In this document: piece after piece, positions 19,335 to 28,893 of the stretch | Layout of the letters: the number at the start of each line of letters is the position of its first letter | Numbering within the stretch: position 1 is the first letter of the stretch | Assembly: GCF_000980815.1 (NCBI RefSeq) | Contig: NZ_CP011311.1 | Location: forward strand, 496,001-560,000 | DNA length: 64,000 nucleotides | Origin: Corynebacterium camporealensis | GTDB lineage: Bacteria; Actinomycetota; Actinomycetes; Mycobacteriales; Mycobacteriaceae | Direction: 5' to 3' | Notes under the pieces: generated by a model | What the model saw: the letters and a program-made list of their open reading frames with translations, nothing else | The model's database searches: none | Told to the model about the DNA's origin: nothing | Made by a program: the position numbers and the translations under genes

Positions 19335-19949
19335 TTAGAGGATGTCGAGAATGCGCACACAGGTGCGCTCGAGGCTGTCGTGCGAAAGCTCGGCGGCCTC
19401 TTGGCGTTTTCCAGCCGCAATGAGCTTGGCCAGCTCGATGTTGCCGTCAATGTGGTCTGCGTGCAGGCGCGGGTAGAGCGGAATGACCAACAGGAAGGTC
19501 AGGCGCATGCGTGCTAGCAGGTTGCCCATCTCTTCGTCGAGGGTGGGCGAGTCCAGCGAGGCAACCAGCTTGCGGTGGAAGCGCTGATTGATAGAGGAGA
19601 CCATCTGGTGCTCGCCGCGCAGCGCGTGCGGAATCGCGGACTGGGTAAGCTCCACGAGCTCCTCTGGGTTGGGGAAGTAGCCCCAACGCACACCAGAAGG
19701 CTCGATGGCCGCACGGGCGCGGTAGAGGTCCTGGACGTAGTCTGCATCCGGGGTTGCGATAAACACCCCGCGGTTGGGGATGCGCTCTACGAGCCTTTCT
19801 GCAGTGAGCTTGGCGAAGGCCTCGCGCAACGTATTGCGGGAACAGTTAAAACGCTCAGCGACCTTTACCTCGCTGAGCTGCTGACCGGGTTCATATTCGC
19901 CTTCAGAAATGGCCTCACGCAGGGCCACGGCTACGGACTGGGAGAGCAT
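19335..19949 (-). CDS. GntR-family regulator, FadR/FCD subfamily
   Basis: A 204-residue DNA-binding regulator. The N-terminal winged helix contains VALREAISEGEYEPGQQLSE, then FNCSRNTLREAFAKLTAERLV and the wing PNRGVFIATP. From about residue 75 an all-helical FCD ligand domain follows, with metal-site-like residues in DLYRARAAIEP, INQRFHRKL and HADHIDGNIELAKLI. It is convergent with ycsI. Palindromes TTGTTGAACAA in front of both operons of the cluster match the DNA consensus of this subfamily, so it probably represses them until a metabolite (perhaps 5-oxoproline) binds. ATG 19949 is preferred to an in-frame start at 19997. Confidence 0.85.
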   Translation of the reverse strand: MLSQSVAVALREAISEGEYEPGQQLSEVKVAERFNCSRNTLREAFAKLTAERLVERIPNRGVFIATPDADYVQDLYRARAAIEPSGVRWGYFPNPEELVELTQSAIPHALRGEHQMVSSINQRFHRKLVASLDSPTLDEEMGNLLARMRLTFLLVIPLYPRLHADHIDGNIELAKLIAAGKRQEAAELSHDSLERTCVRILDIL

Positions 19950-19957
19950 GAGAAAGA

Positions 19958-19997
19958 AGTTTAACGAACATAACAGCTCCGCGCCGGATGTTGTCAA
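19958..19997 (-). promoter_or_regulatory. Promoter elements of the GntR gene
   Basis: On the minus strand a perfect TTGACA (19997-19992) is followed after 18 bp by TTATGT (19973-19968). A second box, TAAACT (19963-19958), ends 8 nt before the ATG and would give a leaderless message. The -35 box lies 2 bp from the repeat array of the divergent ATPase gene, so events on the array could affect both genes. Confidence 0.45.
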
Positions 19998-19999
19998 AG

Positions 20000-20118
20000 A
20001 TCTAAAGGATCTAAAAGTTCTAAATCGCGAAGCGAAATCTAAAGGATCTAAAAGATCTAAAGTCGACAGCGAGATCTAAAGGATCTAAAATTTGTCTACC
20101 AAATCTAAAATATCTAAA
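20000..20118 (+). repeat. Array of ATCTAAA repeats with 9-bp period in front of the ATPase gene
   Basis: Nine exact ATCTAAA copies start at 20000, 20009, 20037, 20046, 20055, 20074, 20083, 20103 and 20112, plus TTCTAAA at 20018 and a worn GTCTACC at 20094. Within groups the step is exactly 9 bp; groups are 19 or 20 bp apart, as if one unit had decayed or been replaced. The array covers the whole gap from the GntR promoter to the ribosome site of the ATPase. Its units overlap the predicted -10 box. It resembles iterons for a DNA-binding protein, with the adjacent ATPase the natural candidate. Confidence 0.9.
20063..20091 (+). promoter_or_regulatory. Candidate ATPase promoter inside the repeat array
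   Basis: TCGACA (20063-20068) and TAAAAT (20086-20091) are 17 bp apart. One repeat unit fills the spacer and another overlaps the -10 box, so the bound array would control this promoter directly. The -35 sequence lies in one of the gaps between repeat groups. Confidence 0.5.
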
Positions 20119-20128
20119 GAGGACGAAC

Positions 20129-21253
20129 ATGGTTAGCAACAATCCTTTTCGACCTAGCTTCGGTAGTTCACCAGCCGTCTTGGCTGGCCGTGACGACGAA
20201 GTAGGGGACTTTACGTATGGTCTTCTCGCGGGAATCGGTAGTTTGCAGCGAGCAGTTCTCATTAGCGGCCCTCGCGGTGTTGGTAAGACTGTGTTGTTGA
20301 ACGCCTTTGAGGAACAAGCTAAGGCCAATGGTTGGGTTGTTGTTCGAGCTACAGCGAATAAGAAGCTCGAAGAGAAGCTGACGAATACGGCCTTGCCCAA
20401 AGCTTTAGAACAGTTGGATTACACAGCCAACGAGCCAGGACGCAAGGTATCGGGAATCTCTGTTGCCGGAATCGGATCGATCTCGACGGAAAACCAGCCC
20501 AGTGAAGTTGTACCGACCATTGAGACGCGACTGCGGGAGCTTGTCGTTGCTGTCAGTGAACAGGGGGCTGGAGTCCTTATCACTATCGATGAAATGCAGG
20601 CTGCACCGATTGACCAGGTAGCTGCTCTCGCCACCGCGATCCAAGACGTGTTGCGCGATGATTTGGATATTGCCTTCGCTGCGGCGGGGTTAACCAAGGG
20701 CATTGAGGAATTACTAGAACACGACGGTACGACGTTTATGCGTCGTGCAGATCGTATTGAGCTAGGACCAATTTCAGATGAGGCGGTCGCGGAAGTTTTA
20801 ACGACGACTATTCGCAACAACGGCAAAGATATTGCTGACGATGCTTTGAAAAGCGCGGTGTCGTTAATTCAGGGTTATCCCTTCCTCGTGCAATTGGTGG
20901 GTGCGATGGTGTGGCTGGAATCAGAAAGAGCCAATACAGACCTAATCACAGAAGAACTTATTGACAAGGTCGAGCCCACAGTGGTGAGCCAAATGGGCAG
21001 GCAGATCCACTCGGTGGCATTGAAGCACGTTCCACCTCGGGAGATGGAGTATCTCTTTGCGATGGCAGAGATCTCTGCGGAAAGCGGTGAAAAAGCAGTA
21101 GCGACCGGCCAGGTGGCAAAGCATCTGGGCGCGGCCGCTAACTCATTGTCCATGGCACGTAGGTCCCTGATTGAGCGAGACTTAATCCAAGCTCCAAGCT
21201 TTGGGCTCGTGGAGTTTAGGTTGCCGCATCTCAGGGAGTACCTGCTGCGTTAA
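20129..21253 (+). CDS. AAA ATPase with C-terminal winged-helix-like domain, first of two paralogues
   Basis: A 374-residue ATPase of the AAA_16/archaeal-ATPase type, distantly like Orc1/Cdc6. It opens with NPFRPSFGSSPAVLAGRDDE, then Walker A SGPRGVGKTVLLN (about 47-59) and Walker B GVLITIDEMQAAP (about 147-159). Downstream are TFMRRADRIELGPIS and GYPFLVQLVG. The last 70 residues (ATGQVAKHLGAAANSLSMARRSL...VEFRLPHLREYL) look like a winged helix. The ATG has GAGGA 5 nt upstream, just past the repeat array. Its paralogue at 26585-27742 shares the same layout and motifs. DNA binding to the array is inferred; biological role is unknown. Confidence 0.8.
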   Translation: MVSNNPFRPSFGSSPAVLAGRDDEVGDFTYGLLAGIGSLQRAVLISGPRGVGKTVLLNAFEEQAKANGWVVVRATANKKLEEKLTNTALPKALEQLDYTANEPGRKVSGISVAGIGSISTENQPSEVVPTIETRLRELVVAVSEQGAGVLITIDEMQAAPIDQVAALATAIQDVLRDDLDIAFAAAGLTKGIEELLEHDGTTFMRRADRIELGPISDEAVAEVLTTTIRNNGKDIADDALKSAVSLIQGYPFLVQLVGAMVWLESERANTDLITEELIDKVEPTVVSQMGRQIHSVALKHVPPREMEYLFAMAEISAESGEKAVATGQVAKHLGAAANSLSMARRSLIERDLIQAPSFGLVEFRLPHLREYLLR

Positions 21254-21257
21254 TTGA

Positions 21258-23003
21258 TTAGTCGATGGTGGCAATCACCGTCGCGGAATCCAGGCGGTCG
21301 CCTTCGGAGGCGAGCAGCTTGATGGTGCCGGTGCGCGGGGCCTTGATGGCAGATTCCATCTTCATGGCCTCGACGGTGGCGATGGCATCGCCTTCTTCGA
21401 CACTGTCGCCGTCGGAGACGTTCCAAGCGACGAGGTTGGCCTCGAAGGGGGAGGTCACCGCGTTGTCGTCGGCAGCTTGGGCGCCAGCGGTCGACGGTGC
21501 GGTCTGCGGGCTGGCGGAGGCGTTGGCGCTGAAGAACTCGACAGGAACACCGATGTTGACCAGCTTGCCGTCGATTTCCACAGCGACGTTGCGGCGCTGG
21601 TTGTAGATGGCCTCGACGTTCTCGACCTGGTTGGCCGCGGATGGGCGGTAGTTGTGGTCGACCCAGTCGGTGTAGAGACCCAGGTCGTTGGAGACCAGGG
21701 CAGGCTCGTCGACCATGTCGCGGTGGAAAGGCAGCACGGTGCGCACGCCGGTGATGTCGAACTCGCGCAGAGCCTGGCGCGCACGGTTGAGGGCAACCTC
21801 GCGGTTCGGGCCCCACACAATCAGCTTGGCCACGAGCGAATCGTAGTACGGCGGAATGATGGAGCCGTTGCGTACTGCGGAGTCGACGCGGATGCCTGGG
21901 CCGGTTGGTGGCTCGAAGGAGACGATGGTGCCTGGGCAGGGTGCGAAGCCGTTGAGGATGTCCTCGGCGTTGATGCGGAATTCGAAGGCGTGGCCGTGAA
22001 TCTCTGGATCGATGTTCTCGCCGTCTTGGATGCAGGAGAGCTTTTCGCCTGCGGCGATGCGGAACTGCTCGGCGATGATATCGACGCCGGTGACGACCTC
22101 GGTAACCGGGTGCTCGACCTGGACACGGGTGTTGACCTCGAGGAAGGAAATGGTGCCGTCCTCAGAGACGATGTACTCGACGGTGCCGGCACCGGTGTAG
22201 CCGACCTTGGCGCAGATGGCGCGGGCGCCTTCGTGGATGCCGTTGCGCTGGGCATCGGTAAGCGCAGGCGCCGGGGCCTCTTCAATGAGCTTTTGGAAGC
22301 GACGCTGGGTGGAGCAGTCGCGGGTGCCGAGCACGACGACGTTGCCGTGGGTGTCAGCAAGCACCTGGGCCTCGACGTGGCGCGGGTTGGTGAGGAACTT
22401 CTCGACGTAGCACTCAGCACGGCCGAAAGCCTCCTGGGCCTCACGGCCTGCGGAGTTGAAGGCACCTTCGATTTCGTCGAAGTTGTCGACGACCTTCAGG
22501 CCGCGTCCGCCGCCGCCGTAGGCAGCCTTGATGGCGATTGGCAGGCCGTGTTCTTCGGCGAAGGCGTGGGCTTCTTGCCAGTCATCAATCGGGTCGGAAG
22601 TACCTGGGGCGAGTGGGGCGCCTACTTCTTCGGCGACGCGGCGGGCGGCAATCTTATCGCCGAGCAGCTCGATGGCTTCAGGCTGGGGGCCAACCCAGAT
22701 CATGCCGGCATCGGTAACCGTGCGGGCAAACTCGGCGTTCTCAGAGAGGAAGCCGTAGCCGGGGTGGACGGCGTCGGCACCTGCGCGCACTGCGATGTCG
22801 AGCAGGGCCGGGACGTTCATGTAGGTATCGGCGGCGGTGTTGCCGGGCAGGGCGTAGGCTTCGTCGGCAACCTGGGTGTGCAGGGCGCCAGCGTCGGCTT
22901 CGGAGTAGATGGCGATGGACTTAATGCCCAAATCACGGGCCGCGCGGGCAATGCGCACGGCGATTTCGCCACGATTGGCAATCAGGACGGTATTAATCTT
23001 CAC
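21258..23003 (-). CDS. accBC: Biotin carboxylase with biotin carrier domain (AccBC type) in the 5-oxoprolinase operon
   Basis: A 581-residue fused alpha subunit. The biotin carboxylase part starts VLIANRGEIAVRIARAARDLG, with the glycine-rich ATP loop KAAYGGGGRGLKVV, EKFLTNPRHVEAQV, EVNTRVQVEHPVTE and the carboxylase C-domain. After an Ala/Ser/Pro-rich linker (about 500-515) the carrier domain has VEAMKMESAIKAP; the Lys near residue 548 is the biotin site. It is the last gene after pxpA and the pxpB-pxpC fusion and overlaps the latter by 11 bp, so it belongs to that operon. Biotin carboxylase genes are known companions of pxp genes, but why is unclear. It is convergent with the ATPase gene, 4 bp apart. 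Confidence 0.88.
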   Translation of the reverse strand: MKINTVLIANRGEIAVRIARAARDLGIKSIAIYSEADAGALHTQVADEAYALPGNTAADTYMNVPALLDIAVRAGADAVHPGYGFLSENAEFARTVTDAGMIWVGPQPEAIELLGDKIAARRVAEEVGAPLAPGTSDPIDDWQEAHAFAEEHGLPIAIKAAYGGGGRGLKVVDNFDEIEGAFNSAGREAQEAFGRAECYVEKFLTNPRHVEAQVLADTHGNVVVLGTRDCSTQRRFQKLIEEAPAPALTDAQRNGIHEGARAICAKVGYTGAGTVEYIVSEDGTISFLEVNTRVQVEHPVTEVVTGVDIIAEQFRIAAGEKLSCIQDGENIDPEIHGHAFEFRINAEDILNGFAPCPGTIVSFEPPTGPGIRVDSAVRNGSIIPPYYDSLVAKLIVWGPNREVALNRARQALREFDITGVRTVLPFHRDMVDEPALVSNDLGLYTDWVDHNYRPSAANQVENVEAIYNQRRNVAVEIDGKLVNIGVPVEFFSANASASPQTAPSTAGAQAADDNAVTSPFEANLVAWNVSDGDSVEEGDAIATVEAMKMESAIKAPRTGTIKLLASEGDRLDSATVIATID

Positions 23004-24549
23004 GGTTTTCTCCCACTAATTCGAATTTCACTTGTGCGCCGGGCGGTAGCTGGGCGGCGACGTCGATGTCTTCTTCCACCACGGTGGCCACGACCGGGTA
23101 ACCGCCGGTCACGGCGTGGTCGCGCATGAAGATGACGGGTTGGCCATTCGGTGGAATCTGTACGGAACCGGCGACCATGCCTTCAGACGGCAGCTCGCCG
23201 TCGCGGACGCGGGCAACGGTGGTATCCCCGGCGTTCAGGCGCAGGCCGACGCGGTTGGAATCACCCGAGACGGTCCAGGTGGTGTTTAAGAAGGTAGCGA
23301 CGTTGTCGCCGAACCAGTCGTCACGCGGGCCGAGTACGCAGCGCAAGGTGGCAGCGGTGCGACCACCAGGACCTTCCTGGACGCGCAGGGGGTTGGTCAG
23401 CTGGGCGTCGGTCATGCCGGACGAACGCGGCAGCACGCCGATGACATCGCCGGCAGAAACCGGGTCGGGGCCGAGTCCGGACAGCACGTCGGTGGCTGAG
23501 GAGCCGAGCTCGGAATCGGAGATGATGCCGCCGCGGATGGCGATGTAGTTGCGCATACCCAGACCAGCCGGGTCGATGCGGATGACCTGACCGGCCGTGA
23601 CGAGGACGGGGCGGGCGAGGTGGACGGGCATCTCGCCAAGCCGGACGCGGGCTTGGGCGCCGGTGACACACACGACGGTGTCGGTGAGCGCGCGCAGTTT
23701 CATGCCGCCGATGTTCTCGAGCACGGTGGCGTTGCGCGAGTTGCCCACGGCGATATTCGCCGTAGCTGCCGATGCCCGGTCAGCCGCACCCGAGGGCGTG
23801 ACACCGAGGTCGCCGGAACCGGGACGGCCCAGGTCCTGGAACAAGGTGAGCAGGCCGGCATCGAGGACTTCCATGCGCGGCAGGCGCGCGGGGGAGCGCT
23901 TGGCCTGATTGTGGTGGTCGACGAGCTCTGGAAGTGAGTCGACGGCGCGGTAGCGCACGCGGTCACCGGGCTGGACGAGCGCCGGAGGGGTGGCATGCGA
24001 ATCCCACATCGGGGTATTGGTCTGGCCGAGCAGCTGCCAGCCGCCGGGGGAGACGCGCGGGTAGACCGCGGAGAATTCACCGGCCACGGCGACGGCGCCG
24101 TCGGGAACCGCGGTACGCGGGTTCGAGCGGCGCGGGATGGCCAGCGCATTGTCCGGGTTAGTGGGCGTGCAATAGGTAAAGCCCGGGGCGAAACCACCAA
24201 AAGCAGCGGTGAACTCGGTGGAGGTGTGCCACTTGATGACGGCCTCACGAGACATGTCCAGCAGGTCGGCTACTTCGTCGACGTCTTCGCCGTCGTAAAG
24301 CACATCGATGTCCACGGTGCGGGCTTCTGCGGCCTTGGCGGCACCGGGGTGGAAATCGTGCAGCTTCTCGGCGGCCTCGCGGGCGGCGTTGGGGGATTCG
24401 AAGGTCAGCAGCAGCGTGGTGGCAGCGGCAATGCAATCGACTTGGGCGCGCAGCGGTTGCGCGGTGAGCGCAGCATGCCAGTCCATGACCTGGTTGAGGT
24501 TATCCAGGTCGACTAGCAGCGCGCGGGAACCTACAGCGTTGATATGCAT
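22993..24549 (-). CDS. pxpBC: 5-oxoprolinase subunits B and C, fused (KipI-KipA type)
   Basis: A 518-residue fusion. The first 210 residues are the KipI/PxpB part (NAVGSRALLVDLDNLNQVM; FTYCTPTNPDNALAIPRRSNPRTAVPDGAVAVAG; SPGGWQLLGQT). From about residue 225 the KipA/PxpC part follows (LEVLDAGLLTLFQDLGRPG-like start, GVTPSGAADRAS, MRNYIAIRGGI, and SNRVGLRLNAGDTTV, SEGMVAGSVQIPPNGQPVIFMRDHAVTGGYPVVATV). With PxpA they hydrolyse 5-oxoproline to glutamate using ATP. In many bacteria B and C are separate genes. The start overlaps the pxpA stop by one base, showing tight coupling. A urea-amidolyase-like or allophanate-type enzyme is the alternative, less likely beside pxpA. Confidence 0.88.
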   Translation of the reverse strand: MHINAVGSRALLVDLDNLNQVMDWHAALTAQPLRAQVDCIAAATTLLLTFESPNAAREAAEKLHDFHPGAAKAAEARTVDIDVLYDGEDVDEVADLLDMSREAVIKWHTSTEFTAAFGGFAPGFTYCTPTNPDNALAIPRRSNPRTAVPDGAVAVAGEFSAVYPRVSPGGWQLLGQTNTPMWDSHATPPALVQPGDRVRYRAVDSLPELVDHHNQAKRSPARLPRMEVLDAGLLTLFQDLGRPGSGDLGVTPSGAADRASAATANIAVGNSRNATVLENIGGMKLRALTDTVVCVTGAQARVRLGEMPVHLARPVLVTAGQVIRIDPAGLGMRNYIAIRGGIISDSELGSSATDVLSGLGPDPVSAGDVIGVLPRSSGMTDAQLTNPLRVQEGPGGRTAATLRCVLGPRDDWFGDNVATFLNTTWTVSGDSNRVGLRLNAGDTTVARVRDGELPSEGMVAGSVQIPPNGQPVIFMRDHAVTGGYPVVATVVEEDIDVAAQLPPGAQVKFELVGENRED

Positions 24550-25310
24550 TACAGAAAGCTCCGGATGTCGATGTCGCGGCGGTGCAGCTCATCGATAACG
24601 TTGCGCAGCAGCTGCACCGAACCTGGCGAGTCGCCGTGGGTGCACACGGACTGCGCATCGACGGCGAGCTTGGTGCCATCCACAGCGGTAATCGAACCGG
24701 TCTCGGCGACTTCAATGACGCGGTTGACTACGTCTTTTTCATCGTGAAGCACGGCGTTGGGCAGGGTGCGGGAGACCAGGGTGCCGTCCGGATTGTAGTT
24801 GCGGTCGGCAAAGGCCTCGCGCACGACGGTCAGGCCGGACTTTTCGGCCAGGTCCACAGCGACGCCGCCGGGAAGCAGCATCACCGGCAGGTCACCGTAG
24901 GCCTTGATGCCATCGATAACTGCCTGGGCTTGCTCCTTGTGGTGCACAATCGCGTTGTAGAGCGCGCCGTGCGGCTTGACGTACTGCACCTTCGTGCCCT
25001 TCGCGCGGGCTAAGGCGTCGAGGGCGCCGATTTGGTAGGTGACTTCGTCGGCAAGCTGCTCCGGGGAGTAATCGATGAAGCGGCGGCCAAAAGCTGCCGG
25101 ATCGTTGTAGGCCGGGTGGGCGCCGACGACGACGCCGGCCTCGGCGGCATCGCCAAGCGTGCGCGCAATGGACTGCGGGTCACCGGCGTGGAAACCAGTG
25201 GCCACGTTTGCGGAAGAGACCATCCCGAGCATCGCATGGTCGTCGGCCACCGGGTTGCCCGCAGTGGTCTCGCCCAGGTCAGCGTTCAGGTCAATGTGTA
25301 AAGAGGACAT
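24549..25310 (-). CDS. pxpA: 5-oxoprolinase subunit A (LamB/YcsF family)
   Basis: A 253-residue PxpA that acts with PxpB and PxpC to open 5-oxoproline, a damage product of glutamine and glutathione. Family marks are IDLNADLGE near the N-terminus, NVATGFHAGDP, VGAHPAYNDPAAFGRR, YVKPHGALYN and VCTHGDSPGSVQLL. It is the first gene of the pxpA-pxpBC-accBC operon. The start has only a weak ribosome site (GGATGG). The leader contains the same palindrome as the NRAMP/ycsI promoter, which indicates joint control. Confidence 0.92.
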   Translation of the reverse strand: MSSLHIDLNADLGETTAGNPVADDHAMLGMVSSANVATGFHAGDPQSIARTLGDAAEAGVVVGAHPAYNDPAAFGRRFIDYSPEQLADEVTYQIGALDALARAKGTKVQYVKPHGALYNAIVHHKEQAQAVIDGIKAYGDLPVMLLPGGVAVDLAEKSGLTVVREAFADRNYNPDGTLVSRTLPNAVLHDEKDVVNRVIEVAETGSITAVDGTKLAVDAQSVCTHGDSPGSVQLLRNVIDELHRRDIDIRSFL

Positions 25311-25327
25311 GCAACACCATCCCTCAA

Positions 25328-25340
25328 ATTGTTGAACAAT
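25328..25340. promoter_or_regulatory. GntR-type operator in the pxpA leader
   Basis: ATTGTTGAACAAT is a 13-bp palindrome containing TTGTTGAACAA, identical to the site in the NRAMP/ycsI promoter 8 kb away. It lies 18-30 bp before the pxpA start and downstream of a possible -10 box TACACT (25360-25355), where a repressor could block transcription. Confidence 0.6.
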
Positions 25341-25389
25341 CCTTAATGAAGGACAGTGTAGTCCGCGTCACGACCTTTTGTGAAGACGG

Positions 25390-26532
25390 TTACGTTTGTT
25401 TACGGAAGGTGGGGGCACCCACCTTCCGTGGGGTACCCACCTGTCCTGCGAATGGATAGTCGGTGTAACCGTGTTGGCCACCAGTATAGAAGGTCGACTC
25501 ATCCGGCGTGTTGAGTTCGAGACCCTGCTGCCAGCGCTCCACGAGGTCCGGGTTGGCGATGAGCAACCGACCTACAGCCACGGCATCGATGTGGGACAGA
25601 TTGACTAAGGAGGTGGCATCGTCAAGCTGGGTGTACGCGGCGAAACCATTATTGCCGATGACCTTGGTGACCCCGTTGCTGCGCGCACGGGTGGCGAGAT
25701 CCGTAATGAGCGGGCCGTCGCACTCGGCGTGCAAGAAAGAGATATAGGCCAAGTTCAGCTCGCTTAAGCTATCGATGACCACACGATACGTCGCCTGCAC
25801 ATCCTGCTCATCGTCCTCAATCACGCCCTGGACGTTGTGCTGCGGGGACAAGCGCAACGCGACGCGGTCACCACCGATTTCCTCAGCGACCGCACGCACG
25901 ACCTCCACCAGCAGGCGCGCACGATTTTCCGGCGAACCGCCGTATTCATCGGTGCGGTGATTCGACGTGGGGCCTAAGAACTGGTGCAGGATATAACCAT
26001 TCGCACCGTGGATTTCCACGCCATCGATACCGGCATCGACCGCGCGTCGGGTTGCCTGGCGGAACTGATCAACCACGCGCGGAATCTCATCGTGCTCCAA
26101 CGCGCGGGGCACGGGACACTCCTTGCGGGACTCCCAATCACGCACCGCGGTACCCGACGCAATCGCCGACGGGGCCTCCGGCTGTTGGCCATCCAACAAC
26201 TCCGGGTGGGACAAGCGACCGCCATGCATCACCTGCATGAAGATGGTGCCACCGCGGGCGTGGACGGCATCGGCAACCTTGCGCCAACCTTCCTGGTGCT
26301 CAGGCGTTTCAATACCTGCCTGGCCAGGGAACGCACGGGTATTGACCGCCGGAAACGTGCCCTCAGTAACAATCAGGCCCGCACTTGCGCGCTGGGAATA
26401 GTAATCCACATGCAACTGCGTCGGCGTACCCGAACGGCCTGCCCGCGAACGGGTCAACGCTGCCATCGTCACGCGATTGTTCAAGTCATAACGGCCCACC
26501 CGCAGCGGGCTAAAGAGCGAAGAATCAGTCAT
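25390..26532 (-). CDS. Old yellow enzyme family NADH:flavin oxidoreductase
   Basis: A 380-residue FMN-dependent ene-reductase of the NemA/xenobiotic-reductase type. It shows LFSPLRVGRYDLNNRVTMAALTRSRA, GLIVTEGTF, FMQVMHGGRLSHP, GVEIHGANGYILHQFLGPTSNHRTDEYGGS with the His-Asn active-site pair, and VGRLLIANPDLVERW. Such enzymes reduce activated C=C bonds. The last 15 or so residues (GTPRKVGAPTFRKQT) are not typical and are encoded by a short palindromic element, so the original stop may have been lost when that element arrived. It is on the same strand as pxpA, with a gap of about 80 bp. Confidence 0.85.
   Translation of the reverse strand: MTDSSLFSPLRVGRYDLNNRVTMAALTRSRAGRSGTPTQLHVDYYSQRASAGLIVTEGTFPAVNTRAFPGQAGIETPEHQEGWRKVADAVHARGGTIFMQVMHGGRLSHPELLDGQQPEAPSAIASGTAVRDWESRKECPVPRALEHDEIPRVVDQFRQATRRAVDAGIDGVEIHGANGYILHQFLGPTSNHRTDEYGGSPENRARLLVEVVRAVAEEIGGDRVALRLSPQHNVQGVIEDDEQDVQATYRVVIDSLSELNLAYISFLHAECDGPLITDLATRARSNGVTKVIGNNGFAAYTQLDDATSLVNLSHIDAVAVGRLLIANPDLVERWQQGLELNTPDESTFYTGGQHGYTDYPFAGQVGTPRKVGAPTFRKQT
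25403..25440. repeat. Palindromic element inside the 3' end of the OYE gene
   Basis: CGGAAGGTGGG and CCCACCTTCCG are perfect 11-bp arms around a 4-nt loop (25403-25428). A second, shorter palindrome GTGGGGTACCCAC (25428-25440) follows directly and repeats the AGGTGGGT-CCC(C)CAC pattern. No T-run follows on the minus strand, so it is not a classic terminator. It could be a REP-like repeat; a search for other copies was not possible. Confidence 0.6.
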
Positions 26533-26584
26533 GCCCGGTGCAACAGTGGCGGGGTGGGGCAGTATTCCCTAAACGTGTTGAGCC

Positions 26585-27742
26585 TTAATAGTCGGAAATC
26601 AGGTTGGCTGCGTGTTCGCGCAGGAAGTCACGGAGATAGGGAAGGGCGAAATCCACTTTGCCGTGGCCCGCTTCAACGATGATTTCAGCGTCGATAAGTC
26701 GACGTCGGTAGTTGCCAATATATGCTGCTTTTCGTCGCATACGCTGGGCAATATCAGAAGTATTGGAAGGGCCATCGTCCTGCGCCATCTTGAGCAGGAA
26801 CGTCCGGTCGACATCAGAGAGTTCTTCTAAAGCGGGGTAATGCAGGAGTCGACCGAGTTTTACTCGTGCCTGATCGATGCCCTTTCGGGCAGCGTCGTAA
26901 GTAATACGGTTGTTCTCGATGGCTCGCACGCAGCAGAGACCGACAAGTTGAATCATGAACGGGTAACCCTGACAAGCTTTTACAGCTAGTTCGAGAGCGT
27001 CTGGTTCCCATTCAAATGGCGTGGTGGTTAGAGGCTCTTCAAGTGCCGCCTTCACATCTGCGTCAGACACACGCCCAAGTTCCAAACGCTCTGCTCTTCT
27101 TAGGAACGTAACCGGGTTGGTATTGCCCGAGGAGTCATGGCTGGCTAGGAGCGGCTTGATTGACGACGGGATGCCAGCCATAGCGACAGCGATTTCTTCG
27201 TCTTCGCGAACGAGATGTTGGATTGTGGCTCCGAACTCTATGACCTCCTGGCTGTGCTGGTGATGCATCTCGTCCAAGGTGATGAGCACACCAGTCGGCG
27301 CTTGGCCGGCGATTCGATCCTGTTCACGTTGGAAAGCAAAAAGGTCTTTTAGGGCTGAACGCAAAGAGTATGAAGAGTTTTCTAGAGACGTGGTGTCCCA
27401 GTCGACGCCCAATCCGAACCCATGGAGGGAAAGCTGTAATCCCTTAATTTCGCGACGGTTGATGCTCAGCTGCTGGATGATTGCTTTACGTAGCCGCTCG
27501 CTAAAACCGGTGGTTGCCGTTTCACTCAATACGCGCCATCCGTTTTCTCGAGCAACGTCTTCAAGACGATTGAGTAGGACCGTCTTGCCAATGCCTCGTG
27601 GGCCGACGACAAGGGAGATTCTTTCATGTGCTCCCGGCCCATCATCAAGTGCGTACTGGAAATTTTGGATCGCTTCATCGCGGCCGACCAGAAGGGGTGG
27701 GTTAACTCCAAGCGAGGCTTTGAACGGATTCTTTGGCTGCAT
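26585..27742 (-). CDS. AAA ATPase with C-terminal winged-helix-like domain, second of two paralogues
   Basis: A 385-residue paralogue of the ATPase at 20129-21253. The shared features are the NPFKASLGVNPPLLVGRDE opening, Walker A VGPRGIGKTVLLN, Walker B GVLITLDEMHHQ, TFLRRAERLELGRVSD, GYPFMIQLVG, and a C-terminal winged-helix-like part (SDIAQRMRRKAAYIGNYRRRLIDAEII...VDFALPYLRDFL). The ATG at 27742 has no ribosome site; TAAACT ends 7 nt before it, so it looks leaderless (a TTG two codons earlier is also open). Upstream is a different array of short repeats with nearly the same period. The pair of ATPases bracket the accBC-pxp-OYE genes. Function unknown. Confidence 0.8.
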   Translation of the reverse strand: MQPKNPFKASLGVNPPLLVGRDEAIQNFQYALDDGPGAHERISLVVGPRGIGKTVLLNRLEDVARENGWRVLSETATTGFSERLRKAIIQQLSINRREIKGLQLSLHGFGLGVDWDTTSLENSSYSLRSALKDLFAFQREQDRIAGQAPTGVLITLDEMHHQHSQEVIEFGATIQHLVREDEEIAVAMAGIPSSIKPLLASHDSSGNTNPVTFLRRAERLELGRVSDADVKAALEEPLTTTPFEWEPDALELAVKACQGYPFMIQLVGLCCVRAIENNRITYDAARKGIDQARVKLGRLLHYPALEELSDVDRTFLLKMAQDDGPSNTSDIAQRMRRKAAYIGNYRRRLIDAEIIVEAGHGKVDFALPYLRDFLREHAANLISDY

Positions 27743-27749
27743 AGTCAAC

Positions 27750-27755
27750 AGTTTA
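27750..27755 (-). promoter_or_regulatory. Probable -10 box of the second ATPase gene
   Basis: TAAACT on the minus strand ends 7 nt before the ATG. The -35 position (about 27773-27778) falls on the first unit of the repeat array and reads AAGCGT, a poor -35 hexamer. Transcription may therefore depend on whatever binds the repeats. Confidence 0.5.
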
Positions 27756-27766
27756 GGGCAGCGCCC

Positions 27767-27814
27767 TTATGAACGCTTGTGAACTTTATGAATTTTGTGA
27801 ATGCTTGTGAATTT
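27767..27814. repeat. Array of TTRTGAAY repeats with 9-10 bp period in front of the second ATPase gene
   Basis: Five units on the plus strand: TTATGAAC, TTGTGAAC, TTATGAAT, TTGTGAAT, TTGTGAAT. Their TGAA cores start at 27770, 27780, 27789, 27798 and 27808 (steps 10, 9, 9, 10). In gene orientation the unit is RTTCAYAA. The array overlaps the -35 position of the ATPase promoter. Its sequence differs from the ATCTAAA array of the paralogue, though the step is the same. Confidence 0.8.
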
Positions 27815-27892
27815 GGCGCGGAGTGGAGACGAAACATAACTCTGTCGGCTCTTGTACGCTGACGGTGTCACCACTTTGAATGAGGAGGCAGT

Positions 27893-28393
27893 ATGGCAGG
27901 TTCGCCCGAGAACATCCTGTTCTACCTGCCGGAAGAGCAGGAAGCGGAGATTCGGGAGGTCTTCGCCAAGCTTGCTGAACGTGGCCTGCCGGAACAAAAG
28001 CAAACTCCACACATTACGGTGACGTTCTCCCCAAAGATGGATCCGGACGTGGTGGAACTAGCTCAGGAATTGCTGCCGCCACTGGTTCCGAGTCAACTGC
28101 GTCGGGTGGGCACCGTCGTATTCGGTACCAAGCGAAAGCAGACTGTGGCGTGGTTGCTGGAAGCCGATGAAGAACTCGAAGCAACCGCTCGTCAGTTAAG
28201 TGCTGCGAATCCGGATGGTCGGGGAGAGCGCTGGACTCCTCACATCACGATGGGGCTGCGGTTACCGCGGGAAACGGTACCGGAATACATCAAGGCTATC
28301 GATGAAGTAACCTCACCGCATCTGCGCTATCTCACTGCGGAACGCGCTTGTTATTGGCGACCACAAGAAAAGATTCTGCGGCAGTTTAACTAG
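27893..28393 (+). CDS. 2H phosphoesterase, 2'-5' RNA ligase (LigT)-like
   Basis: A 166-residue protein with the two H-x-T-x motifs of the 2H family: PHITVTFS near residue 40 and PHITMGLRL near residue 120. Members hydrolyse cyclic phosphodiesters at RNA ends or in nucleotides such as ADP-ribose cyclic phosphate. The ATG has GAGGAGG 5 nt upstream. It starts 150 bp from the second ATPase in divergent orientation, so the repeat array also lies in its upstream region. It overlaps the nuclease gene end by 4 bp. The substrate is unknown. Confidence 0.8.
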   Translation: MAGSPENILFYLPEEQEAEIREVFAKLAERGLPEQKQTPHITVTFSPKMDPDVVELAQELLPPLVPSQLRRVGTVVFGTKRKQTVAWLLEADEELEATARQLSAANPDGRGERWTPHITMGLRLPRETVPEYIKAIDEVTSPHLRYLTAERACYWRPQEKILRQFN

Positions 28394-28893
28394 AGCGGAG
28401 TGCAGTTTTCATCCACGCCATGGATGCCGAGTCCTTCGGCTTCGGCTTGCGCAACGGCATCGGCAACCTCGGGGTAGAAGCGGTCATTTTCGCCCACTAC
28501 CAGGGCAGTGCCTAAACCAGCAGCAGCGATTTCAGCATTGACGAAGACATCGTCTTTGAAGACTGCCGCCAACGTCCGGTCGTAACGATCGGTGCGTTCC
28601 TCGTCGTATTGCAGTTCAACCTCAGTACCGATGGGGAGGAGTTCTTCCAGGAAAGCGGTTGCTTCCTCGGCCATGCACTCGGTCGGGTTGCCAAAGCGTG
28701 CGAGCTCCGGCGTATCCACGTTGAGCAAACGCACGCGGATGGTGTCACCCCGGTGTTCTACATCGAGGGTGTCCCCATCGACGATGTAGGAGACGGTGTA
28801 GGGGTGGTCGGTGGAGGCATCATAAAGCAGCACGCCTCCGATGACCACCGCACCAACTGCCAGCACGCCGCCGAGCACCTTGAAGAATTTCAT
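28390..28893 (-). CDS. Secreted or membrane-anchored thermonuclease (SNase family)
   Basis: A 167-residue staphylococcal-nuclease-like protein. Residues 8-24 form a hydrophobic segment (VLGGVLAVGAVVIGGVL), a signal or anchor. The nuclease core shows VDGDTLDVEHRG, IRVRLLNVDTPEL (Arg, Asp), ECMAEEATAFLEELLP (Glu), and RTDRYDRTLAAVF (Arg), so the catalytic residues are present. It ends GLGIHGVDENCTPL. It probably degrades extracellular DNA or RNA with calcium. Convergent with the LigT-like gene. Confidence 0.85.
   Translation of the reverse strand: MKFFKVLGGVLAVGAVVIGGVLLYDASTDHPYTVSYIVDGDTLDVEHRGDTIRVRLLNVDTPELARFGNPTECMAEEATAFLEELLPIGTEVELQYDEERTDRYDRTLAAVFKDDVFVNAEIAAAGLGTALVVGENDRFYPEVADAVAQAEAEGLGIHGVDENCTPL

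Follow-up and report, generated by a model that had tools for sequence, protein, structure and literature searches.

We describe two paralogous ATPases, ATPase-1 and ATPase-2, encoded in a 64-kb stretch of the complete 2.45-Mb genome of Corynebacterium camporealensis (hereafter the window), each of which stands behind its own array of short direct repeats. We consider it probable, on the evidence set out below, that these genes and their relatives are self-contained AAA+-winged-helix units that bind private arrays of ~9-bp repeats and thereby control their own promoters, with residues 338 and 342 of the protein (ATPase-1 numbering throughout) forming a recognition code. Three observations carry this reading: most close relatives are preceded by direct repeats, the identity of residue 338 is associated with the repeat beyond what shared phylogeny accounts for, and the window's genome, as far as it was searched, has tandem arrays at their own genes only.

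Two ATPases behind unlike arrays

Both genes put forward in the original prediction, which was made from the bare sequence, are present with the Walker motifs claimed for them (GPRGVGKT and LITIDEM in ATPase-1, GPRGIGKT and LITLDEM in ATPase-2), and each lies behind an unlike repeat of its own (Table 1). ATPase-1 and ATPase-2 share 36% identity, and no third copy turned up in the genome at E ≤ 1. An assignment to an AAA_16/PF01637-like family held for its first half: both pass the gathering cut-off of Pfam AAA_16 (PF13191; 53.4 bits for ATPase-1 and 42.8 for ATPase-2, against 32.6) and both miss that of the ATPase_2/SSO1545 profile (PF01637; 27.9 and 14.2 bits, against 33.2). ATPase-2 starts with an ATG at 27742, with an alternative TTG 6 bp upstream.

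The units of array 1 are grouped 3+3+2+2 at 9-bp spacing, one slot being skipped between groups, and a likely ribosome-binding site directly abuts the last of them. Tandem Repeats Finder reported 20000-20090, within this array, as a 37-bp period with a score of 138, and missed array 2. In both arrays neighbouring units are spaced by 9 or 10 bp, a distance that roughly doubles where a slot is skipped; the mean slot length is about 9.3 bp in array 1 and 9.5 bp in array 2, and the equal period that had been proposed is thus only approximate.

Table 1. Positions of the ATPase genes, their arrays and associated features in the window
Feature	Position	Strand	Description
Array 1	19999..20119	+	Ten ~9-bp direct repeats, consensus (G)ATCTAAAR
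ATPase-1	20129..21253	+	374 amino acids; AAA_16 domain and C-terminal winged helix
ATPase-1 residues 102-119 loop	20432..20485	+	In AAA+ core, partly poorly modelled; second, weaker repeat association
Helix-turn-helix of ATPase-1, residues 302-349	21032..21175	+	Recognition helix 337-349
ATPase-2	26585..27742	-	385 amino acids; AAA_16 domain and putative C-terminal winged helix (alignment with ATPase-1)
-10-like TAAACT	27750..27755	-	Begins 13 bp ahead of the ATPase-2 start codon; compatible with leaderless transcription
Array 2	27766..27812	-	Five direct repeats RTTCAYAAR, spacing 10/9/9/10 bp

Upstream arrays across the family

With ATPase-1 as query, homologues were found at E 1e-10 or better in 163 of 201 genomes of the genus, the window's own included. 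The collected set comprised 292 open reading frames (ORFs), of which 273 were full length and 263 remained after removal of duplicate proteins; members with a profile score of at most 240 were treated as a sister clade, in which several other phyla appear in the record titles, many of these records being metagenome bins. Among near-clade members with enough upstream DNA, the direct-repeat score exceeded that of all 8 dinucleotide shuffles in 210 of 238 (201 of 228 loci without duplicate proteins), and the same was true of 23 of the 33 loci L213-L299, which came from searches beyond the genus set. The sister clade attained such scores in 8 of 33 members and instead showed inverted repeats above 10 shuffles in 18 of 33, compared with one of 39 sampled near-clade members. 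Because the sister clade has inverted repeats where the near clade has direct ones, an upstream operator seems from these sequences to be general, with an architecture that depends on the clade. Long inverted repeats stand before the start codon of sister-clade genes such as L260, L269 and L277.

A position matrix seeded with 18 nine-base strings brought 208 loci with an adjacent unit pair into a common register; roughly four in five of these have T at position 3. The 169 non-identical aligned loci hold 28 codes separated by more than 3 mismatches, 36 at more than 2.5 and 60 at more than 2; their consensus strings number 97, or 70 without undetermined letters. A count of 121 distinct consensus strings among all 208 loci was discarded as inflated by duplicates, undetermined letters and spurious strings.

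The arrays also share a promoter geometry. The median array has 5 units (178 loci). From one unit start to the next the distance is 8-10 bp in 492 of 690 cases and 17-20 bp in 166, and the last unit ends a median of 19 bp before the start codon. In 102 of the 178 loci (97 of 170 without duplicate proteins) the start codon is preceded by a TANNNT motif that begins 13 or 12 bp ahead of it; no other position has the motif in more than 5 loci, and no conserved -35 element was found in the 178 loci. The placement of TANNNT together with the missing -35 element suggests that the array occupies the -35 place and that transcripts are leaderless—a pattern that fits ATPase-2 but not ATPase-1, where the array extends up to the likely ribosome-binding site.

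Covariation between repeat and protein

Covariation was analysed in 177 of the 208 loci (effective number 97; 169 without duplicates), leaving out 31 whose consensus was judged spurious by eye or that had no T at unit position 3. Each protein column, learned from other clades only, was used to predict each unit position. With clades held out at 50% identity, position 4 was predicted best by column 338, position 5 by 342 and position 7 by 343; a 60% hold-out put D208 slightly ahead of 342 at position 5. Asparagine, lysine or arginine at residue 338 occurs mostly with C, glutamine with A, and threonine with T; at 342, methionine or valine goes with T and threonine with G, and at 343, tyrosine goes with A and threonine with C. 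Held-out accuracy reached 0.72 against 0.45 for residue 338 and position 4, and 0.67 against 0.50 for residue 342 and position 5, each ranking first of 357 columns, while for position 7 residue 18 was best (0.74) and 343 ranked eighth. The association with the repeat is clearest for N338, next for M342, and weaker for A343.

Under a strict null, in which unit bases evolved by simulation on the protein tree, the pairing of residue 338 with position 4 retained p = 0.015 over all columns; the corresponding values were 0.060 for D208 and position 5, 0.085 for 338 and position 2, and 0.189 for L18 and position 7, and M342 had an own-column p of 0.010 for position 5. A scan of 337 ten-residue windows against the simulated null placed the top nine within residues 329-347, all of them containing 338, with the best helix window (z 5.73) at the floor of 400 simulations; a second cluster appeared at residues 102-119 (z up to 3.8), and a repeat with a new seed left the order unchanged. 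Judged by this association, the 102-119 loop may form a second DNA contact, of the kind that occurs in Orc proteins.

Several results pull against a broad helix code. The p value for 338 and position 4 becomes ~0.09 once corrected for the six unit positions tested; M342 with position 5 (p = 0.144) and A343 with position 7 (p = 0.244) fail when all columns are considered; and D208 with position 5, L18 with position 7 and A76 with position 6 score as high as or higher than M342 and A343. After the six-position correction, only 338 with position 4 remains close to significance. Removing residue 338 takes the best helix window down to z 2.6 and rank 10 and leaves the 102-119 cluster in the lead with z 4.0, so that the helix association rests mainly on residue 338. 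A sister-pair contrast of column change with unit-position change, a measure confounded by pair divergence, did not single out the helix among 72 edge-disjoint pairs, the best columns being scattered. Finally, 19 further candidate loci included 6 without an array and 2 out of register; the 11 that were scored—few, C-rich, and in five cases close to a training protein (identities 0.98, 0.93, 0.92, 0.91, 0.88)—were predicted correctly 8, 6 and 6 times at positions 4, 5 and 7, where the commonest base gave 9, 3 and 4.

The covariation of repeat and winged helix that had been anticipated therefore survives the control for phylogeny in a narrower form, concentrated mainly at residue 338. The accompanying expectation that the winged helix would be the most divergent part of the protein was not borne out, mean column entropy being 2.04 there, 2.03 overall and 2.23 in the lid. 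Could the repeats instead be promoter or RNA elements to which the ATPase does not bind, with the helix association a product of shared ancestry or chance? Unit bases do follow phylogeny, several columns outside the helix score as well, and the helix loses its lead without residue 338; on the other hand, a simulated null that keeps the phylogeny still ranks 338 first, and no Rfam family was found at 19800-28100. We regard this explanation as highly improbable.

Places of the repeats elsewhere in genomes

In the window's genome, the exact or one-mismatch tandem form of array 1 occurs only at array 1. At up to two mismatches, seven of the eight genome matches to TCTAAARGATCTAAAR fall in array 1 and the eighth is a lone match with two mismatches and no further units around it, which does not exceed the yield of the reversed control (7 matches). 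Both genome matches to TTCAYAARNNTTCAYAAR at up to one mismatch lie at array 2 (control 0), whose pattern was not found away from it in this genome, other spacings not being searched. Across the 201 genomes, TTTATCAATTTATCAA has 36 exact places and its reversed control none: 30 are at an ATPase (24 of 30 fetched loci were recognised by the profile, and the remaining 6 places belong to the same arrays), 4 are directly upstream of tyrS, and 2 are unexplained (L334, L338). Pairs of ATCGTACA occupy 11 places in seven genomes, 7 of them at an ATPase and 4, in two genomes, at sites where the gene is missing or reduced. Orphan arrays were seen at about 1500-1546 in L363 and about 1500-1625 in L364, one of these genomes having no ATPase gene nearby and the other retaining roughly its first 20 codons; the orphan arrays adjoin the same neighbour as an intact copy in another genome.

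The places before tyrS tell against strict confinement to the own gene. A tandem pair of TTTATCAA lies just upstream of tyrS in four of the 201 genomes, all related (L331, L333, L340, L359), and three of these four encode an ATPase with the matching TTTATCAA code; judging from the sequence, tyrS is a possible second target in those genomes. The tyrS gene (named by eye) was found in 199 of the 201 genomes, and its candidacy as a general second target was rejected, the array preceding it in the four related genomes only. These places, with the unexplained ones in L334 and L338, are what would be expected under a wider regulon, in which many sites are recognised, the own array most strongly, and the real function lies with single or diverged units in other places. 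We find this distinctly unlikely: 30 of the 36 exact tandem places of TTTATCAA are at the ATPase, the window's genome holds no other convincing tandem place (the tandem form having been searched, not single units or other spacings), and among 43 parsed tyrS upstream regions (49 loci fetched; 35 with a local code, one of them spurious) only the three matching-code genomes rank first.

Predicted fold and known systems

The AlphaFold model of ATPase-1 (mean pLDDT, the predicted local distance difference test score, 92.3) comprises a core, a helical lid and a C-terminal winged helix with residues 337-349 as its recognition helix, and resembles the AAA+ fold of Orc/Cdc6 and SSO1545; at the level of a model, the winged-helix-like C-terminus and Orc-like character first proposed for these proteins are thus upheld. 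The top Foldseek matches to the model were Cdc6/Orc1 structures, one in complex with origin DNA, and the matches also included plant NLR resistosomes and CED-4; the closest fold match is of the SSO1545 type. The layout of the model is likewise that of Orc1/Cdc6 proteins, with the winged helix placed C-terminal to the AAA+ core.

A replication or maintenance unit of Orc/iteron type, with an origin- or centromere-like array and the ATPase as initiator, would account for these first structural matches and for a spacing of one unit per ~9.3 bp, which brings iterons to mind. It is nevertheless the least probable of the explanations considered, given that ATPase-1 scores 18.8 bits against a cut-off of 181.3 with the Orc1/Cdc6 profile (TIGR02928; ATPase-2 is not among the matches), that chromosomal positions vary between genomes, and that the array abuts the -10 box and start codon. 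The archaeal Orc1/Cdc6/Orc2 initiators (1w5t, 2qby, 2v1u), to whose profile the ATPases score far below cut-off, differ from them further in that here the repeats stand at the own promoter and change from gene to gene.

No description of the ATPase family or its arrays was found in the open-licence PubMed Central literature. Proteins of the NB-ARC/STAND type (CED-4, Apaf-1, plant NLRs) have ligand or effector domains that the ATPases lack, and unlike in those proteins the winged helix here appears, from the covariation, to read DNA. The ATPase-1 model contains neither a sensor domain between the ATPase and DNA-binding domains, as in STAND proteins of the MalT/IniR type, nor an extra effector domain. 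Neither a repeat array nor a DNA code is known to us for SSO1545 or PABY2304, and no paper in the open-licence PubMed Central literature was found to name PABY2304. These two archaeal Walker-type ATPases (PDB 2fna and 2qen) are similar in fold to ATPase-1, and the cut-off of PF01637 is not reached by our proteins. Closer in host is IniR, a mycobacterial signal-transduction ATPase that binds and induces the iniBAC promoter; it is described (PMC5760070) as a protein of 818 amino acids that has a MalT-like domain and, at the C-terminus, a domain compared to SdiA. As characterised there, it shares with the ATPases an AAA+ domain predicted to be SSO1545-like, a proposed role as a DNA-binding regulator and an actinobacterial host, and differs in its length and MalT-like domain from proteins of 374 and 385 amino acids.

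Spread and inheritance

Individual genomes have up to ten matches, some of them fragments or with stops (ten copy-rich genomes re-scored). Outside the genus, a Pseudarthrobacter query (L235) found relatives at E 1e-30 or better in 4 of the 373 genomes examined elsewhere in the class, a lower bound in that about five candidates were scored per genome. Relatives also occur in 117 plasmid records, 1 phage record and 44 viral contigs; scans of viral contigs for the two arrays returned 97 and 45 stretches, with single matches where listed. Where the context reached 6 kb or more (122 loci), a flanking gene family was common to 238 of 288 locus pairs at 65% protein identity or more (with a few duplicate records among the most similar pairs), to 116 of 451 pairs at 50-60%, and to 174 of 5512 below 45%. 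The ATPase gene therefore appears, from its flanks, to be mostly inherited in place.

The fold and this turnover of copies allow a sensor or defence role, and we weighed the possibility of an NB-ARC/STAND-like sensor, or else a selfish gene, whose private array insulates paralogues from one another. The multiple, sometimes broken copies, the plasmid and viral relatives, and the structural matches to NLR resistosomes and CED-4 are in its favour, as is a faint match to Avs1b (NCBIfam, E 4e-4, 17.6 bits against a cut-off of 1500). Yet no defence profile came near its cut-off in the PADLOC and NCBIfam scans of the ATPases: PADLOC gave weak matches, mostly over the P-loop, with a best E of 0.0016 (Avs1b over residues 40-251, E 0.0029), and NCBIfam DS41_1 reached 15.9 bits against 370. 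The lack of an effector domain in the model, of any neighbour family in more than 32 of 240 loci, and the shared flanks of closely related copies also speak against it. Nor are units within a genome unusually different, with 0 of 49 pairs (28 genomes, matched identity) within 3 mismatches where 2.1 were expected; as so few close pairs are expected, we make no claim of insulation within genomes. On balance, we think a selfish or defence unit unlikely.

A proposed mechanism

We return to the account of self-contained autoregulatory units. Here the C-terminal winged helix would bind the array over the gene's own promoter, one protomer per unit, and binding would in turn control the protein's own synthesis; cooperative assembly on a promoter array, as a form of autogenous control, offers the simplest account. 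At the beginning of the recognition helix, residue 338 would read unit position 4, and residue 342 would probably read position 5, such that joint drift of protein and array could generate dozens of codes. We infer from these patterns that the protein would physically bind the array and oligomerise on it under the control of ATP; an output beyond autoregulation would be a further inference. As for the direction of control, repression is slightly favoured: it fits an array that overlaps the -35 region, though activation would also fit, as there is no -35 box.

A bolder version is conceivable, if doubtful: that the proteins form a self-recognising and mutually insulated Orc/NB-ARC-like family in which ATP drives assembly only on the own array, the recognition helix and the 102-119 loop co-evolve with the operator rapidly enough to yield dozens of orthogonal codes, and the array may serve as an activation platform for defence or selfish functions rather than as a simple operator. 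If binding is confirmed, the family would amount to a naturally evolved collection of over 150 protein-operator pairs with at least 28 clearly different codes on one small scaffold, in which a winged-helix specificity code could be tested directly, as could the evolution of orthogonal regulators, and would show Orc/NB-ARC-like AAA+ proteins acting as single-gene regulators in a genus where carriers are so frequent.

Neighbouring genes

Neighbours were called from ORFs, some of them spurious antisense frames, and named by eye; the names accBC, pxp and OYE come from an earlier reading of the sequence. The two ATPase genes flank an accBC-pxp-OYE block in the window's genome, as originally noted. 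The role in mobilising or silencing this segment that had been attached to the bracketing found no support: GntR and accBC are kept beside the ATPase-1 homologue in G006, G105 and G152, while the closest ATPase-2 homologue is 1.2 Mb away in G006 and on another contig in G105, and the arrangement is for this reason most likely incidental, as far as gene order can tell.

No general operon partner emerged among the 240 loci. An mnmA-like gene lies near the ATPase in 32 of them (for example L009, L027 and L101), with cysteine desulfurase- or ligA-like genes also near these ATPases in at least two arrangements; this neighbourhood may reflect either conserved placement or a hot spot of integration. 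In the window, a thermonuclease-like gene (named by eye; 28390-28893, minus strand) is one gene away from ATPase-2, and thermonuclease-like genes also flank nine other fetched ATPase loci, two of which are apparently the same site.

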